This document shows, one piece after another, positions 25,928-57,035 of a stretch of 64,000 bases of DNA (positions within the stretch are counted from its first letter, which is position 1; every line of letters begins with the position of its first letter). The position numbers and the translations under genes are program-made. The notes beneath the pieces were generated by a model. It was not told where the DNA came from, ran no database searches, and saw only the letters and a program-made list of their open reading frames with translations. Source of the DNA: Biomaibacter acetigenes (GTDB lineage: Bacteria > Bacillota > Thermosediminibacteria > Thermosediminibacterales > Tepidanaerobacteraceae); NCBI RefSeq assembly GCF_003691585.1, contig NZ_CP033169.1:2728001-2792000 (forward strand), given 5' to 3'.

Positions 25928-26207
25928 TTTTCTTCGCCCTGGCAAGTCCGAAATAGTAACCGATAAATCCCGCTCCCATGGCGGCCTGAAGGGCAAATAG
26001 AAGACTTTCTATCTCACCGCTGGGAGGCTCCCACAGCGGCTTAAACCATGGTTTAAAATCCGCGTTCACCTGGGTAATGACTTCTTCCGCCATGTCGTCG
26101 GCCCCTCCGAATTTTGCATCTTTTAGTGTTAAAAGCGGGTAAATCGAAAGAAGTATCACCAGCAGAGCAAGAATCAAATTTTTTATAAAAAAGTTTTTAT
26201 CTCTCAT
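25914..26207 (-). CDS. cbiN: Cobalt transporter small subunit
   Basis: 97 residues with two membrane segments (residues 9-25 and about 68-88) flanking an extracytoplasmic loop with [22 protein letters not shown], the CbiN signature. Couples to CbiM in cobalt-specific ECF systems. Confidence 0.93.
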
Positions 26208-26947
26208 GGCGGACCTCCTTTGAAATTAACCAAAGTCCGGTGAGCATTTCTTCATTATATGCGGTAAGCAAATTTATAACCATTACCGATAACAGTCCCT
26301 CGCTGATGGCAAGAGGCACCTGGGTTACCGCAAATATACCCATAAATTTTAAAAAAGATGCGGCAAATCCGCCGGGATTTGCGGGAAACGCCAGGGCCAG
26401 CTGGAGGGAAGTGGTAACATAGGTGAGCAAATCTCCCAGGGCTGCCGCCAAGAAGACTGAAAGCCACCTGGGTCCCCCAAATTTATTTACCCCTCTGTAG
26501 ACCAGATAGGATACAATGGGCCCCGCCACCGCCATGGAGAATGTGTTTGCTCCAAGAGTGGTTATACCTCCATGGGCCAGCAGCAGTGCCTGAAAGATAA
26601 GTACAATCATCCCCAGCACGCTCATAACCCACGGCCCGAAGAGAATGGCACCAAGGCCTACTCCGGTGGGATGGGAACAGCTGCCCGTTACCGACGGGAG
26701 CTTGAGGGCGGAAAGCACAAAGGCGAAAGCTCCGGCAAAGCCCCAGCAGCATTTTCACCCGGGGGTTGGCATCAACGAGCTTTCGTATGGAGTAAAGCCC
26801 CAGTATGACGAAGGGAAGGGCGAGCAAATCCCACATCACGGCCCACTTCAGCGGCAGGTATCCTTCCGTTATATGCATGGCCAGGGCCGGACGGGGTATC
26901 CATAACATCATCGCGGTAAAAAATAATATACTTCTAAACATTTCCAT
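26197..26947 (-). pseudogene. cbiM: Cobalt ECF substrate-binding component, interrupted by a frameshift
   Basis: The upstream frame encodes a signal-like start, then MHITEGYLPLKWAVMWDLLALP (N-terminal His of mature CbiM) and NPRVKMLL. It then diverges. The second frame supplies [28 protein letters not shown] and the remaining membrane helices. Dropping one G from the G4 run near 26742 restores [16 protein letters not shown] and a full protein of about 250 residues. It is first in the operon, directly behind the cobalamin riboswitch, so a real mutation would disable cobalt uptake. Sequencing error is plausible. Confidence 0.92.
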
Positions 26948-27079: not shown

Positions 27080-27265
27080 GTAGGATAGTGTTCACCGGTA
27101 CAGGCAGGTCTCCTGGCTCAGGTTCATCACCGCCCTATGCCTTCCCGGTTTCCCAGTGGCGTATATAAGGCGGCTCACCTTTACAGTGGCGGGACCGCGC
27201 GGGACTTTCACCCGACTTCCCTATTGGTTCAACCCTCGAAGTTGAACACCTGCACCTGTAATATT
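27080..27265 (-). promoter_or_regulatory. Cobalamin riboswitch of the cbi operon
   Basis: On the minus strand, read 5' to 3': GGGAAGTCGGGTGAAAGTCC, GCGGTCCCGCCACTGTAA, then the 3' B12 box GCCAGGAGACCTGCCTGTAC. These are the conserved blocks of the adenosylcobalamin riboswitch. A terminator follows before cbiM. It would repress the whole cbiMNQOAXCDETLFGHJ operon when B12 is plentiful. Confidence 0.95.
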
Positions 27266-27338
27266 CAGTTTTGCTTAATTATAGAATAATTTACAGCATA
27301 TGTCAAGGTTCATCTTTTTATGGGTTAAGGCCACCCAT

Positions 27339-27698: not shown

Positions 27699-27892
27699 AT
27701 GGTATTTGAGGAGTGACGGTCGCTTCGTCGTAAAGGATACTGGGGAAAATTCTGCTGAGTCTCTAGTTCCATCGGGTTTTTACCAATAAGGGTGCCCCTG
27801 GCATGGAGCCTTACACCCATATTCTGGTACAAAAAGGGGCTTGTGGGAAAAAAAGTAATATATTATAATATGTTCGTAGGAAAACTGAATAT

Positions 27893-28060
27893 CAAAAACA
27901 GGTGCTCCTCAGGGAGAGAATAGGGAACCGGGTGAAAATCCCGGGCGGTCCCGCCGCTGTAAGCGAGGAATGTTCCTTCAAGAGCCACTGGTCTCTGACC
28001 GGGAAGGGGAAGGAATGTCATGATCCGCAAGCCAGAAGACCTGCCTGTTTTGGGTAACAG
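27893..28060 (+). promoter_or_regulatory. Cobalamin riboswitch of cobT
   Basis: Conserved blocks in order: ACAGGTGCTCC, GGGAACCGGGTGAAAATCCC, GGGCGGTCCCGCCGCTGTAA, and the B12 box GCCAGAAGACCTGCCTGT. A second, independent copy for the plus-strand gene cobT. Confidence 0.95.
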
Positions 28061-28099
28061 CTTTCCACGAGAGATGGAAGCTTACGCAGGGATGATGGT

Positions 28100-42645: not shown

Positions 42646-42675
42646 TTGGCATAACTAATTAATACCGCCTAACTT

Positions 42676-42815
42676 CGTCTTCTTCCATCCAGACTTTACT
42701 GTCGGCCCCGGAATCACACCGGATCTACCTTTCGGCTCGCGGGCTTGAAGCTTTCGCTTTTTACCGCCGGTCAGGAATTGAAGGTTTTACCTTCTCACCT
42801 TGCCCTGAAGACTAT
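42676..42815 (-). promoter_or_regulatory. FMN riboswitch (RFN element)
   Basis: Minus strand carries the conserved blocks: CTTCAGGGCAAGGTGAGAAG, AATTCCTGACCGGCGGTAAA, AGCCCGCGAGCCG, TCCGGTGTGATTCCGGGGCC and GACAGTAAAGTCTGGATGGA. It should shut off ribDEBAH when FMN is high. Confidence 0.95.
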
Positions 42816-42991
42816 CTTATTAAATTTTCTTAAATAATAACACATAAATTGATTGAAGGCAATAGTAAAAAGTTTGCAAGTTTTTTGAGTCAGGGGTCGG
42901 TTTTTTGACTAATTTAAAGCGGAAAATTCAGAAGCAGTGGGATTGCTCTGGACTTCCTATTTCAGATACAATTAAGATCTCACCGGTTTTT

Positions 42992-45556: not shown

Positions 45557-45626
45557 GTCACGGACGGTTCTTCCCACGCGCCGGAGTGTATATGGAAATG
45601 TGTCAATGGAACCGTCCCCGTGGCAC
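45557..45626. repeat. Inverted-repeat element with GGACGGTTC arms
   Basis: TGTCACGGACGGTTC (45556-45570) and GAACCGTCCCCGTGGCA (45609-45625) form near-perfect inverted ends around 38 bases. The same ends occur at 10686-10710 and 47597-47625. The element lies between moaA and the MoeA-PBP gene and provides the latter's stop codon. Confidence 0.7.
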
Positions 45627-47543
45627 GATAGTCACTTTGCCCGTATCGCGGGTGTCGTAGCCTCCCAGGGCTTCCACCTTTTGCTTGAATTCATCGGTGT
45701 TTATGACCTGAAGCATCTTCTTTACCGAATCCAGATGGTAAAATTCCTCGGGTATAACAAGGTCATACTCTTCCGGCGATATCGGGATAAAGTCCAGGTT
45801 AAGGGCATTGGCAGCCGCCAGGATCCCCAGGCCCGCATCGGCGCTGCCTCCAGCCACCGCTGCCGCTACCGCCATATGGGTATATTCCTCCCGGTCATAT
45901 CCCCGGATTTCATCGGGAGATATCCCCAGCTGCTTTAATTTTAAATCCAGAAGCAGCCTGGTGCCGGCTCCCCTCTGGCGGTTGATGAAAAGTACATCGG
46001 GCCTTCTTAAATCCTCGATGCTTTTTATTGCTTTAGGGTTGCCTTTCGGTACCATAATGCCCTGCTGCCGGTAGATGAGATTTACCAGGACTACTCCCTT
46101 TTCCAGAAGATACCTTTTTATATAGGGCACGTTGTATTCCCCGGTATCGGGGTCCAGAAGGTGAATGCCCGCCATGTGGCATTCACCCCGCTTTAATGCC
46201 ATGATCCCTCCCATGCTCCCCACGTGGGCGGAAGAGATATTGAGCTCCGGGTAATATTTTTTGACTTCATTGGCGAGGAGGTCAAGGGTTATATCATGGC
46301 TTCCTATTATGACAACGGTGTTTTCAATCTCATATCCTGGCCTCAAAAGCTCCACTTCCACCTGTTCCCCGGCCTCCAGACCTTCCTTTAATGCCGGTAT
46401 CCTGGCGATGCCGTCGGCTCTCACCATGGACATGATAACACCGGCGCCCCGGGGAAGGGGAGAGGCGCAGACCCGCTCTCCTATACGCCCGAGCTTTACT
46501 CTGAGGAATTCCTCGGTGCCGATGGACGACACCACCCGCCGGGACATGACGGCATTTATCTTTTCCGGCTCCGGTTCCGGGATTCCCTGCATCAAATAAA
46601 TCAATGGCTTCACAAAGAGGTTCATGGTAAGAACCGCCGATACCGGATAGCCGGGAATGCCCATAACAGGTTTTTCGCCTATTCTTCCAAGCATCACGGG
46701 TTTTCCGGGCCTTATGGCCACGCCGTGAACCAGCAGTTTACCCAGTTCCGCTATACATGATGAAGTATAGTCCTCAGACCCTGCCGAAGAACCCGCGTTA
46801 ATTATGACCGCATCAGCTTTTTCCAAGGCTTCCTGAATTTTTTGTTTTATTTTTTCATAATCGTCTTCAACCTTTTCCATCACCAGGGCCTGACCGCCCC
46901 ATTCTTCCACAAACCCGGCCAGCATAGCAGAATTGTATTCTATGATATCCCCGGGTTTTAAAACCGTCCCAGGGGATACCAGTTCGGTTCCCGTGGGGAT
47001 TATAGCTACAATCGGTTTTTTCCTCACAGCCACCTGCACATGCCCTCCCGCCAGGATGGCTCCCAGATCCTGGGGCCGCAGCCGGTGATTTTCCGGCACG
47101 ATGAGTTCAGTGGCCACTATGTCCTCCCCTATCCCCCTCACGTTGTCCCAGGGGGAGTAGGATTTGATTATCTCCACTTCTCCATCACCCACCGGATGGA
47201 CCTCTTCAATCATTATCACCGTGTCGCATCCGGGGGGAAGGGGGTCCCCGGTGTCAACATATTTAAAGTGGATTCCTTCTTTTAACCTGACGGGATTACT
47301 GTCATCGGCTCCGAAGGTATCCTTTGCCGCCACCGCAATGCCATCCATGGCCGCCGCATGGTAATGGGGCGACGAAATTTTAGCAAAAACTGGCTCTGCC
47401 GTAACCCTTCCCAGAGCCTTCCGGACATCCAGGATCTCCGGCTCCCGGGACTTTAAAATCCCAGCCTCCTGCAGGTCCTCAAAAAATAACTTCTTTGCTT
47501 CTTCCAGAGGCATATTGTCCAGATAAACATCCCTTTTCTTCAT
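45603..47543 (-). CDS. MoeA domain fused to a periplasmic-binding-protein-like domain
   Basis: 646 residues. The N-terminal MoeA part (1-410): DGIAVAAKDTFGADDSNPVR, YNSAMLAGFVEEWGG, NAGSSAGSEDYTSSCIAELG, GIPGYPVSAVLTMNLFV. The C-terminal 220 residues are a PBP-like (LysR-substrate/ModA-type) domain: NTVVIIGSHDITLDLLANEV, LFINRQRGAGTRLLLDLKLK. This fusion is known in anaerobes and may sense or deliver molybdate or tungstate; that is inference. The last residues (PRGRFH) and stop are encoded by a dispersed repeat. Confidence 0.9.
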   Translation of the reverse strand: MKKRDVYLDNMPLEEAKKLFFEDLQEAGILKSREPEILDVRKALGRVTAEPVFAKISSPHYHAAAMDGIAVAAKDTFGADDSNPVRLKEGIHFKYVDTGDPLPPGCDTVIMIEEVHPVGDGEVEIIKSYSPWDNVRGIGEDIVATELIVPENHRLRPQDLGAILAGGHVQVAVRKKPIVAIIPTGTELVSPGTVLKPGDIIEYNSAMLAGFVEEWGGQALVMEKVEDDYEKIKQKIQEALEKADAVIINAGSSAGSEDYTSSCIAELGKLLVHGVAIRPGKPVMLGRIGEKPVMGIPGYPVSAVLTMNLFVKPLIYLMQGIPEPEPEKINAVMSRRVVSSIGTEEFLRVKLGRIGERVCASPLPRGAGVIMSMVRADGIARIPALKEGLEAGEQVEVELLRPGYEIENTVVIIGSHDITLDLLANEVKKYYPELNISSAHVGSMGGIMALKRGECHMAGIHLLDPDTGEYNVPYIKRYLLEKGVVLVNLIYRQQGIMVPKGNPKAIKSIEDLRRPDVLFINRQRGAGTRLLLDLKLKQLGISPDEIRGYDREEYTHMAVAAAVAGGSADAGLGILAAANALNLDFIPISPEEYDLVIPEEFYHLDSVKKMLQVINTDEFKQKVEALGGYDTRDTGKVTIVPRGRFH

Positions 47544-47596
47544 ATAAAAACTCCTTATATATATTCTATTTATATATATTCTATTTAAGCTTCGTT

Positions 47597-47625
47597 AAAA
47601 AGACAGAACCGTCCCTGTGTCTTTT
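47597..47625. repeat. Short ACCGTCCC-family repeat
   Basis: AAAAGACAGAACCGTCCCTG then TGTCTTTT between the two moeA-type genes: inverted AAAAGACA/TGTCTTTT arms around GAACCGTCCC. Related to the elements at 10686 and 45557. Just 5', TATATATTCTATTTA is tandemly duplicated (47553-47586). Confidence 0.65.
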
Positions 47626-47628
47626 CCC

Positions 47629-48870
47629 TTAATATATTTCTACCTCCACCAGTTCGCCTTCTGCCACTCCCTGCTTTTCGGACGGGATACGGGCTAATCC
47701 GTGGGACTCTACCATATTGGAAATGAGCCCCGATTTTCCCAGAACCGGCACCGCCCAGAGCTCTTCTCCCCTTTGCTCCAGCTTAACCCTTATAAAATCC
47801 TGTCTTCCTGCGGCGGATGCTATATTCCTGGACATCCTGGCATAGACTCTCGTTCCCCCGAAATCTTCGGGCCTTCCCAGCATCGTGGATATAATGGGCC
47901 TTACGAGTATTTCAAATATCACCATGGCCGAGACCGGGTGACCGGGAAGACCGATGATGGGCTTGCCATCCACCACTGCCACCACCGTGGGCTTGCCGGG
48001 TTTTACCGGAAGGCCGTGGGCCAGCACACCGGGTTTTCCCAGGCTTTCGATAACCTTCACGGTGTGGTCCCTGGCACCCACCGAACTTCCGCCGGACAGG
48101 AGCACCATATGGCTCTTTTCCAGGGCGGCTTTTACGGCATCATATAAATCCTCGAAATTATCCCTCACTATGCCCTGCGGTAGGGGCAAACCTCCCCATT
48201 TCATCACTTCTCCGCAAATGGCATAGGTGTTTATATCTCTCACTTCCCCGGGCTTAACAGATGATGCAGGAGGCTTTATTTCATCACCGGTGGAAATAAC
48301 CGATACTGCAGGGGGCTTTACTAATTTTATGCGGTCAATACCCACCGCCGCCAGTGCTCCCAAATCCTGGGGCCTCAACGTATGACCTTTTTTTAGCACC
48401 ACACTGCCCTTTTTTATATCTTCCCCCTTTTCCACCACGTTTTCTTTCGGCGCCACCGGCTTTTCGGCGCAGAGGATGGTGTCATCCATTAGTTGTGTAT
48501 ATTCCAGCATAACGACGGCGTCAGAACACTCGGGCAGCATGCCGCCGGTGGGTATTTTTGCTGCCTCACCGGTTGAAAGTTTGATTTCTGTTTGCTCACC
48601 CATCCTGATTTCGCCCACGAGGGTCAGGAGTGCGGGCATGGATTCGCTAGCCCCGAAGGTGTCCCTGGCCCTCACCGCAAAACCATCTACGGTGGAGCGG
48701 TTAAAGGCAGGGATGTCTTCCGGTGAAACAATGTCCTCCGCCAGCACCCTGTTGTAAGCCTGGAGTAAGTTCGCTTCCTCAATTTCGGGCTTATAGCCCT
48801 CCAGATGTTTTTTCAAAATCTCTTTCACCTGTTCTACGGTGACAGCACTGAATAAAGCCAATGGATTCAT
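47629..48870 (-). CDS. moeA: Molybdopterin molybdotransferase
   Basis: 413 residues, full-length MoeA: FNRSTVDGFAVRARDTFGAS, AAKIPTGGMLPECSDAVVML, LLSGGSSVGARDHTVKVIES, LPGHPVSAMVIFEILVRPII, and a domain IV tail (GLARIPSEKQGVAEGELVEV). Inserts molybdate (or tungstate) into adenylylated molybdopterin. Two MoeA-type proteins in one cluster may split Mo and W use (inference). Confidence 0.95.
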   Translation of the reverse strand: MNPLALFSAVTVEQVKEILKKHLEGYKPEIEEANLLQAYNRVLAEDIVSPEDIPAFNRSTVDGFAVRARDTFGASESMPALLTLVGEIRMGEQTEIKLSTGEAAKIPTGGMLPECSDAVVMLEYTQLMDDTILCAEKPVAPKENVVEKGEDIKKGSVVLKKGHTLRPQDLGALAAVGIDRIKLVKPPAVSVISTGDEIKPPASSVKPGEVRDINTYAICGEVMKWGGLPLPQGIVRDNFEDLYDAVKAALEKSHMVLLSGGSSVGARDHTVKVIESLGKPGVLAHGLPVKPGKPTVVAVVDGKPIIGLPGHPVSAMVIFEILVRPIISTMLGRPEDFGGTRVYARMSRNIASAAGRQDFIRVKLEQRGEELWAVPVLGKSGLISNMVESHGLARIPSEKQGVAEGELVEVEIY

Positions 48871-50342: not shown

Positions 50343-50371
50343 GTGACAATTTATGAAAACTGGATTATAAT
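50343..50371 (+). promoter_or_regulatory. Promoter of the liv operon
   Basis: GTGACA (50343-50348), 17 bases, TATAAT (50366-50371): a near-consensus sigma-A promoter about 30 bases before the riboswitch. Confidence 0.75.
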
Positions 50372-50404
50372 AAAAAATAAAATTTATACTTAAATCTTTT
50401 CGGT

Positions 50405-50542
50405 GGGAGTGTACCTAGGGTTCCGGCAATAAGCGGCAGGTCCAAGCGGTACAGCAAGAAATTGTACACCGTGGGTATAAAAGACCCCAGCGGTAGGTTC
50501 CACCTGTATTTTGTCATGGGTGAAACTGCCGTTTTTATTTTT
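50405..50542 (+). promoter_or_regulatory. ykkC-family (subtype 2) riboswitch, probably ppGpp-sensing, with terminator
   Basis: The ykkC hallmark CCTAGGGTTCCG (50414-50425) is followed by GCAGGTCCAAGCGG and ACACCGTGGGTATAAAAGAC. GTGTAC/GTACAC pairing and GGG/CCC arms are visible. Next comes a terminator arm pair CGGTAGGTTCCACC ... GGGTGAAACTGCCG followed by TTTTTATTTTT (to 50541). In the known ykkC subdivision, subtype 2a binds ppGpp and sits before branched-chain amino acid genes in Firmicutes. Here the downstream genes are livKHMGF, so ppGpp is the favoured ligand (inference); guanidine or PRPP types are the alternatives. Confidence 0.85.
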
Positions 50543-50633: not shown

Positions 50634-51812
50634 ATGTTTAAACTTTCAAAAACCCTGGCTTTAACCATCGTAATTGCGTTGACAATCCTGGCGCTGGCCG
50701 GATGCGGGCAAACACAATCCACCGGTTCTTCCAGTTCTTCAAGTTCGGATTCTTCCCAGCAGGCAAAAAGTGATGATGTAATCAAAATCGGTACACTCGG
50801 ACCTCTTACGGGAAATACCGCCACCTATGGTATAAGCACCAAAAACGGCGTAGAGGTGGCCGTGGATGAGGTAAATAAAGCCGGTGGCATCAACGGAAAA
50901 CAGGTAAAACTATTTTCCGAAGATACCCGCGGAGACCAGACCGAAGCCGCCAATGCAGCCACAAAACTCATCGAACAGGATAAGGTCATAGCCATTGTAG
51001 GTGGTGTGTTGAGCTCCGAGACCATGACCGCCGGACCAATAGCCAACGATGCTAAAGTCGTAATGATTTCTTCTTCTTCAACGGCTTCAGGAATCCCGGA
51101 TATAGGAGACTATATCTTCAGAAACTGTCTTTCTGACGATGTACAGGCCACACAGCTTGCCGAATATGCTGCCAAAGACCTGGGGCTTAAGAAATTCGCC
51201 ATAATGTTCACAAACAATGACTATGGCCTTTCGCTCAAAAACGCCTTTGAGAAGAAAGCCAAAGAAGTAGCGCAGGTGGTGGACATAGAAACATACAACG
51301 ACGGCGAAAGTGATTTCAGAGCTCAGCTCACCAAGATAAAAGGATTCAATCCCGATGCCCTTTATATTGCAGGATACTACACCGAGGCAGCGAAAATTGC
51401 CCAGCAGGCTCAGGAACAGGGATTAAAGGTCCAGATCCTGGGAGCCGACGGATTCTACTCTCCCAAGCTGGTAGAGCTCGGCGGCAAAGCCGTGGAAGGA
51501 GCCATCTTCACCGCAGGATTTTTTGCAGATGACCCAGCCGAAGCCGTGCAAAACTTTGTAAAAGCCTACAAAGAAAAATATAACGCCGAGCCCGACATGT
51601 TCGCCGCCCAGGCTTATGACGCAGCCAAGATCCTGCTTTCCGCCATAAAGAACGCCAATGGAGCCGGCGGAGAAGCACTGCAGGCCGAAATGGCCAAGAC
51701 CAGGGATTTTCCTGGTATCACCGGAAACACATCCTTTGCTGAAAACGGCGATGCTGTAAAGGATATCATCATATTGAAGGTTGAAAACGGCAAATTCACA
51801 AAGCTCCGTTAA
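50634..51812 (+). CDS. livK: Branched-chain amino acid ABC transporter, substrate-binding lipoprotein
   Basis: 392 residues. Signal peptide with lipobox LALAGCGQ, then a Ser-rich linker and a type-I periplasmic-binding fold: IKIGTLGPLTGNTATYGIST, KNGVEVAVDEVNKAGGINGK, VSSETM-like GGVLSSETMTAGPIANDAKV, KFAIMFTNNDYGLSLKNAFE. Captures Leu/Ile/Val outside the membrane. AAAGGGGGATCTTT is the RBS. Confidence 0.95.
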   Translation: MFKLSKTLALTIVIALTILALAGCGQTQSTGSSSSSSSDSSQQAKSDDVIKIGTLGPLTGNTATYGISTKNGVEVAVDEVNKAGGINGKQVKLFSEDTRGDQTEAANAATKLIEQDKVIAIVGGVLSSETMTAGPIANDAKVVMISSSSTASGIPDIGDYIFRNCLSDDVQATQLAEYAAKDLGLKKFAIMFTNNDYGLSLKNAFEKKAKEVAQVVDIETYNDGESDFRAQLTKIKGFNPDALYIAGYYTEAAKIAQQAQEQGLKVQILGADGFYSPKLVELGGKAVEGAIFTAGFFADDPAEAVQNFVKAYKEKYNAEPDMFAAQAYDAAKILLSAIKNANGAGGEALQAEMAKTRDFPGITGNTSFAENGDAVKDIIILKVENGKFTKLR

Positions 51813-51836
51813 AAACAAAATTCCGTCAAAACATGG

Positions 51837-51863
51837 GTCAATGGACGCCCCGCGTCCATTGAC
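51837..51863 (+). promoter_or_regulatory. Perfect 12-bp hairpin between livK and livH
   Basis: GTCAATGGACGC-CCC-GCGTCCATTGAC with no T-tract behind it. In binding-protein operons such stems often stabilise the upstream mRNA and let the binding protein be made in excess over the permease. Confidence 0.65.
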
Positions 51864-51881
51864 TTTCCCATTTAGAAAGGA

Positions 51882-52775
51882 ATGGATAACCTCATGTTCT
51901 TTTCGCAGTTTTTCGCGCAGGTTATAAACGGTTTGACACTGGGAAGCACTTATGCCCTCATAGCTCTGGGTTACACCATGGTCTACGGCATCCTGGAACT
52001 TATAAATTTTGCCCACAGCGAAATTTATATGACAGGCGCTTTTGTGGGCTTGATGATGGTCACTGTTTACAAACTTCCTTTTGCCATAGCGTTGCTGGCG
52101 GGAATGGCCGGTTCCTGTATTCTGGGAGTAGTCATTGAGAAAGTGGCTTACAAGCCTTTAAGAAAGGCAAACCGTATAGCACCCCTCATCAGTGCCATAG
52201 GAGTATCCATATTTTTACAAAATGCTGCGCTGCTTGCTGCGGGGCCTCAGGCAAGAGCATTCCCTGCTAATTTTAAAATCACAGGTTTAAATTTTGGTAT
52301 TATCCAGATTTCTTCCCTGCAGCTTTTAATACTGATAATATCCGTCTTTCTCATGGTAGGACTTCATTTTCTCATACAGAAAACCAAAATCGGGCAAGCC
52401 ATGAGGGCAACGGCCCAGGATAAGGAAACCGCCCAGCTAATGGGTATCAAGATAGACAGGGTCATATCCTTTACCTTCGCCATAGGGTCGGCCCTGGGCG
52501 GTGCCGCCGGTGTTCTGGTAGGAGTATATTTTAATTCTGCCGACCCCATGATGGGATTTTTCCCCGGACTTAAAGGCTTTGTAGCCGCCGTGCTGGGAGG
52601 TATAGGCAACATCCCCGGTGCCATGGTGGGAGGTCTTATTCTGGGTCTTGCGGAGGTATTGGGAGCCGTGTATATGTCGCAGTATAAAGATGCCATAGCC
52701 TTTGCGGTGTTGATACTTATTTTGCTGTTTAAACCTACGGGCCTTATGGGCCGCAGGGTTCAAGAGAAAGTGTAG
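51882..52775 (+). CDS. livH: Branched-chain amino acid ABC transporter permease LivH
   Basis: 297 residues, about 8 membrane segments: QVINGLTLGSTYALIALGYT, MVYGILELINFAHSEIYMTG, and the EAA-like loop RATAQDKETAQLMGIKIDRV. The ATG at 51882 lies only one base after AAAGG; ATG 51894 is a possible alternative start. Confidence 0.94.
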   Translation: MDNLMFFSQFFAQVINGLTLGSTYALIALGYTMVYGILELINFAHSEIYMTGAFVGLMMVTVYKLPFAIALLAGMAGSCILGVVIEKVAYKPLRKANRIAPLISAIGVSIFLQNAALLAAGPQARAFPANFKITGLNFGIIQISSLQLLILIISVFLMVGLHFLIQKTKIGQAMRATAQDKETAQLMGIKIDRVISFTFAIGSALGGAAGVLVGVYFNSADPMMGFFPGLKGFVAAVLGGIGNIPGAMVGGLILGLAEVLGAVYMSQYKDAIAFAVLILILLFKPTGLMGRRVQEKV

Positions 52776-52784
52776 GTGTAGCTG

Positions 52785-53687
52785 ATGAATTATTATTTAC
52801 AGGTACTGATGGTAATAGGAATAAACATAATCCTTGCCGTAAGCCTCAACCTTGTATCGGGTTTCACCGGACAGCTTTCCCTTGGGCACGCCACTTTCAT
52901 GGGCATCGGCGCCTATACCGCCACACTGCTGGCTCTTAAACTCCATGTTCCCTTTTTGATCGCCATAATCATCGGAGCCGTAACAGCGGCCTTTTTTGGC
53001 TTTATCATCGGTGTCCCCACCCTCAGGCTCAGGGGTGATTATCTTGCTATTGCAACATTAGGCTTTGGGGAAATCATGAGGAACATTCTACTGAACCTCA
53101 AGATCACCGGCGGCCCCATGGGACTTCGGGGTATCCCCAAGGTAACCAACATATATATTGTGGCGGCAGCGGTCATCATGGTAATATTTTCTTTAAATAG
53201 AATAATGAATTCCCGGGTGGGCAAAGCCTTTATAGCTATCAGGGAAGATGAACTTGCAGCCGAAGCTATGGGGATTAATACAACCAACTACAAAATCCTG
53301 GCTTTTGCCATCGGTGCCTTTTATGCAGGCATTGCCGGAGGTCTTTTCGCCTTCCTGTTCCGTTATATTAATCCCAATAATTTCGGTTTCATGAAATCCA
53401 TAGAGATCCTGTGTATGGTGGTCCTCGGCGGCATGGGCAATACTGCGGGAGCCATACTGGGCGCCGCCATGCTGACAATTTTACCGGAATTTTTAAGGTC
53501 GGTATCTCCGGTGATTTCTCAGTATCGCATGGTCTTTTACGGACTTTTGCTGGTGGTGATGATGATTGTAAGGCCCCAGGGCCTGCTGAGCGACACTTCC
53601 TTTAGTTTTCTCAAATCATCTATGTTCAGAAAGATGAGACCCGGAAAAATTGCCAGAAGGGAGGGCAATGAAAGTGACGCTTCTTGA
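52785..53687 (+). CDS. livM: Branched-chain amino acid ABC transporter permease LivM
   Basis: 300 residues: NIILAVSLNLVSGFTGQLSL, GHATFMGIGAYTATLLALKL, TLRLRGDYLAIATLGFGEIM, IREDELAAEAMGINTTNYK. Second permease subunit. Its 3' end overlaps livG by about 20 bases. Confidence 0.94.
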   Translation: MNYYLQVLMVIGINIILAVSLNLVSGFTGQLSLGHATFMGIGAYTATLLALKLHVPFLIAIIIGAVTAAFFGFIIGVPTLRLRGDYLAIATLGFGEIMRNILLNLKITGGPMGLRGIPKVTNIYIVAAAVIMVIFSLNRIMNSRVGKAFIAIREDELAAEAMGINTTNYKILAFAIGAFYAGIAGGLFAFLFRYINPNNFGFMKSIEILCMVVLGGMGNTAGAILGAAMLTILPEFLRSVSPVISQYRMVFYGLLLVVMMIVRPQGLLSDTSFSFLKSSMFRKMRPGKIARREGNESDAS

Positions 53688-54456
53688 AGGTAAAAACCTC
53701 ACCATGGTTTTCGGCGGCCTGGCAGCCCTGGACTCAGTGGATATAAGCATAAATAAGGGAGAAGTATTGAGCCTCATTGGCCCCAACGGTGCGGGCAAAA
53801 CGACCCTTTTCAACCTTCTTACGGGCGTTTATTCACCCACCCGGGGTTCCATAAGCTTCAAACAAAAGGAGATAAAAAACCTCAAGCCCTATGATATTAC
53901 AAAAATGGGCATTGCCCGCACCTTTCAAAACATCAGGCTTTTCGGCGAGATGAGCGTGCTGGATAATGTAATCATAGGGCAGCATTGCCGCACCGGTACC
54001 GGCGTATTTGGAGCGATCTTCAGGGGACCTGCGACCAGAAAGGAAGAAAGAAAGGTGCGGGACAGGGCCATGGAGATTCTCAACTTTGTAGGTCTTGATA
54101 GCGAAGCCGGAGAAAAAGCCAAAAACCTTCCTTACGGCAAGCAACGGCGTCTTGAAATGGCCCGGGCTCTGGCCACAGACCCCGATTTGATATTGCTTGA
54201 TGAACCTGCCGCAGGAATGAACCCCCAGGAGACCAATGAGCTAATAGGACTGATCGATAAAATAAATGACATGGGAAAAACCGTTCTCCTGATTGAGCAT
54301 GATATGAAGCTGGTCATGGGCATTTCCCAGAGGATAATGGTGCTGGATTACGGTAAAAAGATCGCCGACGGACCTCCGGAAAAGGTGCGAAATGACGAGA
54401 AAGTTATAAAGGCTTATCTGGGTGACAGGGCCGGCAAGGAGGACCGTGCATGTTAA
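53668..54456 (+). CDS. livG: Branched-chain amino acid ABC transporter ATPase LivG
   Basis: 262 residues from ATG 53668 (GGGAGGG upstream; the earlier ATG 53650 is inside livM without RBS). Walker A LIGPNGAGKTTLFNLLTGVY, Q-loop ARTFQNIRLF, signature LPYGKQRRLEMARALA, Walker B LILLDEPAAGMNP, H-loop IEHDM. Overlaps livF by 7 bases. Confidence 0.94.
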   Translation: MKVTLLEGKNLTMVFGGLAALDSVDISINKGEVLSLIGPNGAGKTTLFNLLTGVYSPTRGSISFKQKEIKNLKPYDITKMGIARTFQNIRLFGEMSVLDNVIIGQHCRTGTGVFGAIFRGPATRKEERKVRDRAMEILNFVGLDSEAGEKAKNLPYGKQRRLEMARALATDPDLILLDEPAAGMNPQETNELIGLIDKINDMGKTVLLIEHDMKLVMGISQRIMVLDYGKKIADGPPEKVRNDEKVIKAYLGDRAGKEDRAC

Positions 54457-55154
54457 AACTTAACAATGTTGTAACTCATTACGGAAACATACAGGCATTG
54501 AAGGGCATTTCACTGGAAATTAACCAGGGTGAGATAGTGACGGTAATAGGTGCCAACGGGGCAGGTAAAACCACCACCCTGAAGGCTATCTGCGGCCTGG
54601 TGAATATTACTTCGGGAAAAATTTATTTTCAGGGAAAGGATATCACCGACAAACCCACCTCGGATATCGTTGGTTCAGGCATAGCCATGGTCCCGGAAGG
54701 CCGGAGGGTCTTTCCTCGCATGACTGTGCTGGAAAATCTGCAGCTCGGTGCATACCTGAATGGAGATAAAAACCAGATAAATAAAGACCTGGAACGGGTC
54801 TTTGAACTCTTTCCCATTTTGAAACAGCGTTTAAAACAGGTAGCGGGCACTCTTTCGGGCGGCGAGCAGCAGATGCTGGCCATGGGGAGAGCTTTAATGG
54901 CAAGACCAAAGCTGCTTCTCCTGGACGAACCCTCCATGGGGCTTGCCCCCATGATTGTTTCAAACATCTTTGATATTATCCAGGAAATAAACCGGAGCGG
55001 CACCACCATCCTCCTGGTGGAGCAAAACGCCCATATGGCGCTGTCCATAGCACATAAGGGGTATGTAATAGAAACTGGAAAGATAGTCATGGAGGACACA
55101 GCCGATAATTTACTTCACAATGAACAGGTTAAAAAGGCGTATTTAGGGGAGTAA
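54450..55154 (+). CDS. livF: Branched-chain amino acid ABC transporter ATPase LivF
   Basis: 234 residues: Walker A VIGANGAGKTTTLKAICGLV, signature LSGGEQQMLAMGRALM, Walker B LLLLDEPSMGLAPM, and VEQNA at the switch His position, as usual in LivF. Last gene of livKHMGF. Confidence 0.95.
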   Translation: MLKLNNVVTHYGNIQALKGISLEINQGEIVTVIGANGAGKTTTLKAICGLVNITSGKIYFQGKDITDKPTSDIVGSGIAMVPEGRRVFPRMTVLENLQLGAYLNGDKNQINKDLERVFELFPILKQRLKQVAGTLSGGEQQMLAMGRALMARPKLLLLDEPSMGLAPMIVSNIFDIIQEINRSGTTILLVEQNAHMALSIAHKGYVIETGKIVMEDTADNLLHNEQVKKAYLGE

Positions 55155-56347: not shown

Positions 56348-56794
56348 TCAGCAGTTGTCTGATAATTCTTCAAAAGGGTTTATAACCACTATCTCTTCAT
56401 AATATTGCCCATGATTAAGATCTTCTGACCAAATGACATCACAATTCAATTTTTTTGCGCTGCATATTATAAGAGAATCCCAGAAGGAAAGTTTATTTCT
56501 TTGTTGAATATCAATGGCATATAAAATATCATTCACATCAGGTATATGAACATTCCATTCCTTAAGATCGGTAATAATTCTAGCAGCTTTATCAGTTAAA
56601 ATAGGTTTTGCTATTTTTTGAACCACGGTTACATAAAATTCCTGAAGTACTTGAATGCTTATACAACCCTGCCGGGATTCCCATAAGTTTGTTAAAAGCT
56701 TTCGCGCTCTTTCATATTTTTTACCGGCACTTCTATCATGGGCATAAACCAGTACATTAGTATCTATAAACTGACGTTTGAAATTATCGTTCAT
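56348..56794 (-). CDS. PIN-domain toxin (VapC-like)
   Basis: 148 residues. Acidic PIN residues: FIDTNVLVYAHDRSAG (Asp), SIQVLQEFYVTVV (Glu), LSFWDSLIICSAKKL (Asp) and IWSEDLNHGQ (Asp). Overlaps the upstream ribbon-helix-helix gene by 11 bases, the usual toxin-antitoxin order. Expected to cleave RNA when not bound by antitoxin. Confidence 0.9.
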   Translation of the reverse strand: MNDNFKRQFIDTNVLVYAHDRSAGKKYERARKLLTNLWESRQGCISIQVLQEFYVTVVQKIAKPILTDKAARIITDLKEWNVHIPDVNDILYAIDIQQRNKLSFWDSLIICSAKKLNCDVIWSEDLNHGQYYEEIVVINPFEELSDNC

Positions 56795-57035
56795 GAAGAT
56801 CCTCTCTTCGCCAATTTATTTTACCGCAGGTATCTAACTCAAAACCTGTTTCTAATATAGATAAATGATGCTTTTTAGCCTTTTCATAAGAATCCTCTTT
56901 GTGAACTATTTCTTCCAAAGTCTTTGTCAAAAGAGCTGATATAGATATCTGCTTTTCGATGGCTATATGTTTAATTTTTTTTAAAAGTTCTTTGGGAATA
57001 GAAAGAGTAATGTTCTGATATTGCATTTTTATCAC
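56784..57035 (-). CDS. Ribbon-helix-helix antitoxin
   Basis: 83 residues: QNITLSIPKELLKKIKHIAI (beta-strand and first helix of an RHH/CopG fold) and ISALLTKTLEEIVHKED; the C-terminal 30 residues would wrap the toxin. A perfect CACGTA-TT-TACGTG palindrome lies 18 bases upstream, the likely autoregulatory operator. Confidence 0.85.
   Translation of the reverse strand: MIKMQYQNITLSIPKELLKKIKHIAIEKQISISALLTKTLEEIVHKEDSYEKAKKHHLSILETGFELDTCGKINWRREDLHER

Follow-up and report, generated by a model that had tools for sequence, protein, structure and literature searches.

The window (the whole stretch of Biomaibacter acetigenes DNA that was analysed, 64,000 nucleotides) carries a leader in which a promoter, a ykkC-type aptamer and a terminator follow one another ahead of five genes of branched-chain amino-acid import, livKHMGF (50634-55154; Table 1). 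The names LivK, LivH, LivM, LivG and LivF are the top NCBIfam matches of the five open reading frames, all of them below the curated cutoffs, and the Pfam support is clear. The initial annotation had described a ykkC hallmark and a terminator between a good promoter and livKHMGF, and all of these were located, the hallmark UACCUAGGGUUCCG lying at 50412-50425. The span given for the element, 50405-50542, was nearly right; the full element occupies 50402-50542. Near the operon, on the opposite strand (56348-57035, -), a PIN-domain-like gene follows a small gene in a toxin-antitoxin-like arrangement, according to open reading frames only.

Table 1. Coordinates of the liv leader and of the genes behind it (positions in the window)
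Feature	Position	Strand	Basis or remark
Sigma-70-type promoter, GTGACA-17-TATAAT	50343..50371	+	11/12 consensus positions agree; consensus match only
ykkC subtype 2a (predicted ppGpp) aptamer	50402..50504	+	own 2a model 96.0 bits over 50397-50507; covariation, n=41 sequences
Aptamer helices	P0 50402-406/500-504; P1 50410-415/448-453; P1a/P1b 50418-443; P2 50454-465; P3 50469-493	+	
C at guanidine-I A46 position (= C49, PMC6031431)	50447	+	alignments
ACACCG with C75 equivalent (C50467)	50466..50471	+	alignments; C75 role: PMC6031431
CAG between CCC and CGG, place of G96 without G	50488..50490	+	A by own count; numbering inferred
Intrinsic terminator, stem 50489-50507/50516-50533, U tract 50532-50542	50489..50542	+	folding, shuffles, relatives
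livK, substrate-binding lipoprotein	50634..51812	+	PF13458; top NCBIfam match NF011933, below cutoff
livH, permease	51882..52775	+	PF02653; top NCBIfam match NF008011
livM, permease	52785..53687	+	PF02653; top NCBIfam match NF008450
livG, ATP-binding protein	53668..54456	+	PF00005 + PF12399; top NCBIfam match NF008449
livF, ATP-binding protein	54450..55154	+	PF00005; top NCBIfam match NF008626

The ykkC core, namely P1, P2, P3 and UAGGGUUCCG, is present in the aptamer (RF00442 alignment; pairing counts, n=41). When the published fold was applied to 41 aptamers, 92.6% of cells were paired, against 28-47% with the partners slid, and covariation amounted to 0.331 as compared with 0.129 after shuffling. 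Changes on both sides were noticed in 15 pairs of this fold, including all five pairs of P0, a helix (GGUGG/CCACC) built from the conserved 5' and 3' ends. In 13 liv leaders the same fold paired 97.6% of cells. The extra helix P0 is mentioned among the published markers of subtype 2a (PMC6031431).

Guanidine-I (RF00442) is the sole ykkC model in Rfam 15, where no separate 2a model was returned. It aligns end to end at 50404-50495, over all 107 positions, with 41.8 bits and an E value of 2.5e-6 over 361 nt, and because this score lies below the curated cutoff of 63, the Rfam scan at gathering threshold missed the aptamer. Elsewhere in the genome RF00442 gave two more weak matches, L003 (E 0.19) and L004 (E 2.2), which were treated as chance. 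The idea of a guanidine-I riboswitch can draw on the fact that this family is the only meaningful Rfam match, and on the P1-P3 core and UAGGGUUCCG common to both RNAs; nevertheless the match is 21 bits under the family cutoff, and a guanidine-I label taken from it was rejected as a mislabel.

Relatives were gathered by scanning named genomes for a DNA pattern (at least 118 stretches) and by searching the family and the order to which the window belongs, and were sorted into classes by the downstream gene. The subtype models comprised 20 ilv-linked sequences for 2a, 24 purine-linked sequences for 2b and 11 sequences for guanidine-I, the 2a training set being free of the window, of its family and of any liv sequence. 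Comparison of ykkC subtypes by covariance models, which had been put forward as the way of checking the initial annotation, gave 2a (ppGpp) as the best match with 96.0 bits, followed by 2b (PRPP) with 64.7 and guanidine-I with 27.3, in a comparison that covered these three subtypes. A best match to guanidine-I or PRPP, which the initial annotation had named as speaking against it, did not occur. The automatically derived consensus structure of model R1 differs from the published ykkC fold, so that its score is mainly sequence-based, and the structures that RNAalifold gave to models R1 and R2 match the published fold in part only. Therefore the comparison was redone with sequence-only profiles, which gave 82.2, 54.9 and 9.2 for 2a, 2b and guanidine-I respectively, and the published fold was tested separately.

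The subtypes are also distinguished by single nucleotides. C49, in contrast to A46 of guanidine-I, and G96 of PRPP aptamers are used as subtype criteria, and C75 pairs with the guanine of ppGpp (PMC6031431); the mapping of the window onto this numbering was inferred from G104 and G105 of that paper. At the A46/C49 position the window has a pyrimidine, C50447, where guanidine-I has A, and C50467, the equivalent of the conserved C75, stands in ACACCG where guanidine-I reads ACACGG. Guanidine-I RNAs lack P0 as well, so the window differs from them at all three points. Members of that class exceed 100 bits with the guanidine-I model, compared with 27.3 for the window, and no guanidine-related gene lies nearby; a guanidine-I riboswitch at this place is hardly conceivable.

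A PRPP riboswitch (2b) would tie liv to the supply of purine precursors. In its favour, 2a and 2b have most conserved letters in common, the scaffold with P0 included, and the window reaches 64.7 bits with the 2b model. This score is nevertheless 31 bits under that of 2a. The region of 50488-50490 reads CCC-CAG-CGG, with no G at position 96, whereas CCC-R-G-N-CGG was found in 51/51 parsed purine-linked aptamers among the matches listed, and among these matches the amino-acid-linked aptamers were cleanly split from the purine-linked ones. The exchange G96A turned a PRPP aptamer to ppGpp with a switch of about 40,000-fold (PMC6031431). Both the invariant G96 and the purine genes of 2b are absent here, the gene context being amino-acid transport, and the PRPP reading is considered extremely improbable. 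By sequence and structure, the leader belongs to ykkC subtype 2a.

The pairing of aptamer and liv is conserved. Within the window's family (Tepidanaerobacteraceae), the aptamer precedes liv in 12/13 genomes, and the same arrangement occurs in a Symbiobacterium MAG (L153) and in L200 (family f24, same phylum), where LivK is 73% identical and a terminator-like sequence of its own is present. The marker nucleotides and P0 are kept throughout the family, as they are in two further lineages that have liv. A search of the phylum with R1 gave matches in 200/399 genomes, a figure that includes other ykkC subtypes and so cannot be read as the number of ppGpp riboswitches.

The terminator stem (50489-50533), followed by UUUUUAUUUUU, has a folding energy of -18.7 kcal/mol, and 0/200 shuffles were as stable (z -3.7). 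It was not listed by a simple terminator scanner, presumably because the stem is interrupted. In the 13 liv leaders 90.4% of its cells are paired, with weak covariation and one pair changed on both sides. Aptamer and terminator are predicted to be mutually exclusive folds: 50491-493, 50500 and 50502-504 are common to the terminator and to the 3' strands of P3/P0, and when folding was predicted for transcripts of increasing length, the minimum was P0-P3-like with ends at 50507-50515 and became the terminator fold once 50535 was reached. The minimum free energy structure of the full leader has non-native 5' pairing in place of P1-P2, and the energy balance is no proof of switching. In a ppGpp riboswitch the ligand is reported to strengthen the closing helix in its competition with the terminator (PMC10687018). 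Since the 3' strands of P3/P0 also serve in the terminator here, ligand binding should therefore block termination, and an ON switch with ppGpp would follow from the arrangement as in that report.

It can be said that the liv leader is very probably a ykkC subtype 2a (ppGpp) riboswitch controlling the operon by transcription antitermination, with the ligand assigned by homology. The probable ppGpp riboswitch of the initial annotation is thus upheld as a prediction, to which the 2a score, the marker nucleotides, P0, the gene context, the conservation and the logic of the terminator all contribute. In the proposed course of events, aptamer helices P0-P3 would be complete before the terminator is transcribed. 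At high (p)ppGpp the ligand would pair with the conserved C of ACACCG and stack on P0, so that P0 stays closed, as does the base of P3, and their 3' strands are barred from the terminator; with the terminator blocked RNA polymerase would read into livKHMGF. At low (p)ppGpp the 3' strands of P3/P0 would pair with 50516-50533 and transcription would stop at the U tract. Given an ON switch by (p)ppGpp, amino-acid starvation would thus raise the import of branched-chain amino acids. The locus would add a conserved case of amino-acid import governed by an RNA that senses the alarmone directly.

Thermosediminibacter oceani is an organism that we take to belong to the same order as B. acetigenes. For its ilvE riboswitch, micromolar affinities for both ppGpp and pppGpp have been shown (PMC10112252). 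The ppGpp riboswitches of T. oceani and Desulfitobacterium hafniense ilvE have P0-P3, the markers, control by a terminator and downstream amino-acid genes in common with the window; they control ilvE, whereas the predicted one of the window would control the liv importer. No paper naming livK with a ppGpp riboswitch was found in the literature searched, the gene list of the 2018 PNAS ppGpp-riboswitch work being outside the search. It is well supported that the liv leader represents a new but ordinary example of a known regulator.

Natural 2a aptamers vary in their preference for ppGpp or pppGpp, and one assay found alarmone binding for 25/30 of those predicted (PMC12373219, PMC10112252). Such variation would allow a 2a scaffold whose specificity has moved to pppGpp, pGpp or another nucleotide, or one that has lost its response and acts as a plain attenuator; set against the markers and P0 kept in the family and in two other liv lineages, this is regarded as very unlikely. 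It is likewise very unlikely that the liv-linked aptamers form a ligand-shifted 2a branch, for example one that favours pppGpp or some other nucleotide above ppGpp; if true, the same cell would use different alarmones to set import and biosynthesis.

The genome encodes one RelA/SpoT homologue, which counts in favour of the ppGpp reading, and CodY. CodY boxes with up to three mismatches were absent near the promoter, and their number in the window was no higher than chance. The acetolactate synthase (ilvB) genes of the genome follow T-boxes (L010, L019), with no ppGpp aptamer detected before these T-box-led genes; in sister genera ilvB is preceded by a tandem of ppGpp aptamer and T-box-like element. 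The family thus lends itself to a natural comparison of the ways in which starvation signals are divided between import and biosynthesis.

The second ykkC aptamer of the genome (C1:3135830-3135926) lies before a glutamate synthase gene, named by ORF reading. This aptamer (L001 1491-1604, -) obtained nearly equal scores of 48.6, 45.7 and 42.7 bits with the three subtype models, as did its relatives. Another genome of the family has a ykkC aptamer, probably of subtype 2c, ahead of a NUDIX hydrolase gene (L044 1501-1605). Aptamers of 2a type were also seen upstream of an AMP-forming CoA-ligase-like gene (L078, L090), peptide ABC transporters (L055, L108) and a sodium-dependent transporter (L137, L192), contexts of which none was named in the literature searched. 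Other riboswitches of the window include two divergent cobalamin riboswitches (27086-27268, -, 123.7 bits, and 27883-28062, +, 134.4 bits), of which one precedes a cbiM-like gene and the other a cobT-like gene (names by ORF reading), and an FMN riboswitch (42673-42816, -; 106.7 bits). The cbiM-like gene (26197-26947, -) is divided between one frame at 26197-26718 and an overlapping one at 26483-26947, a split that points to a frameshift or to an error in the assembly. On ORF reading only, two adjoining moeA-like genes occupy 45603-48870 (-), and one of them has a C-terminal periplasmic-binding-like domain.
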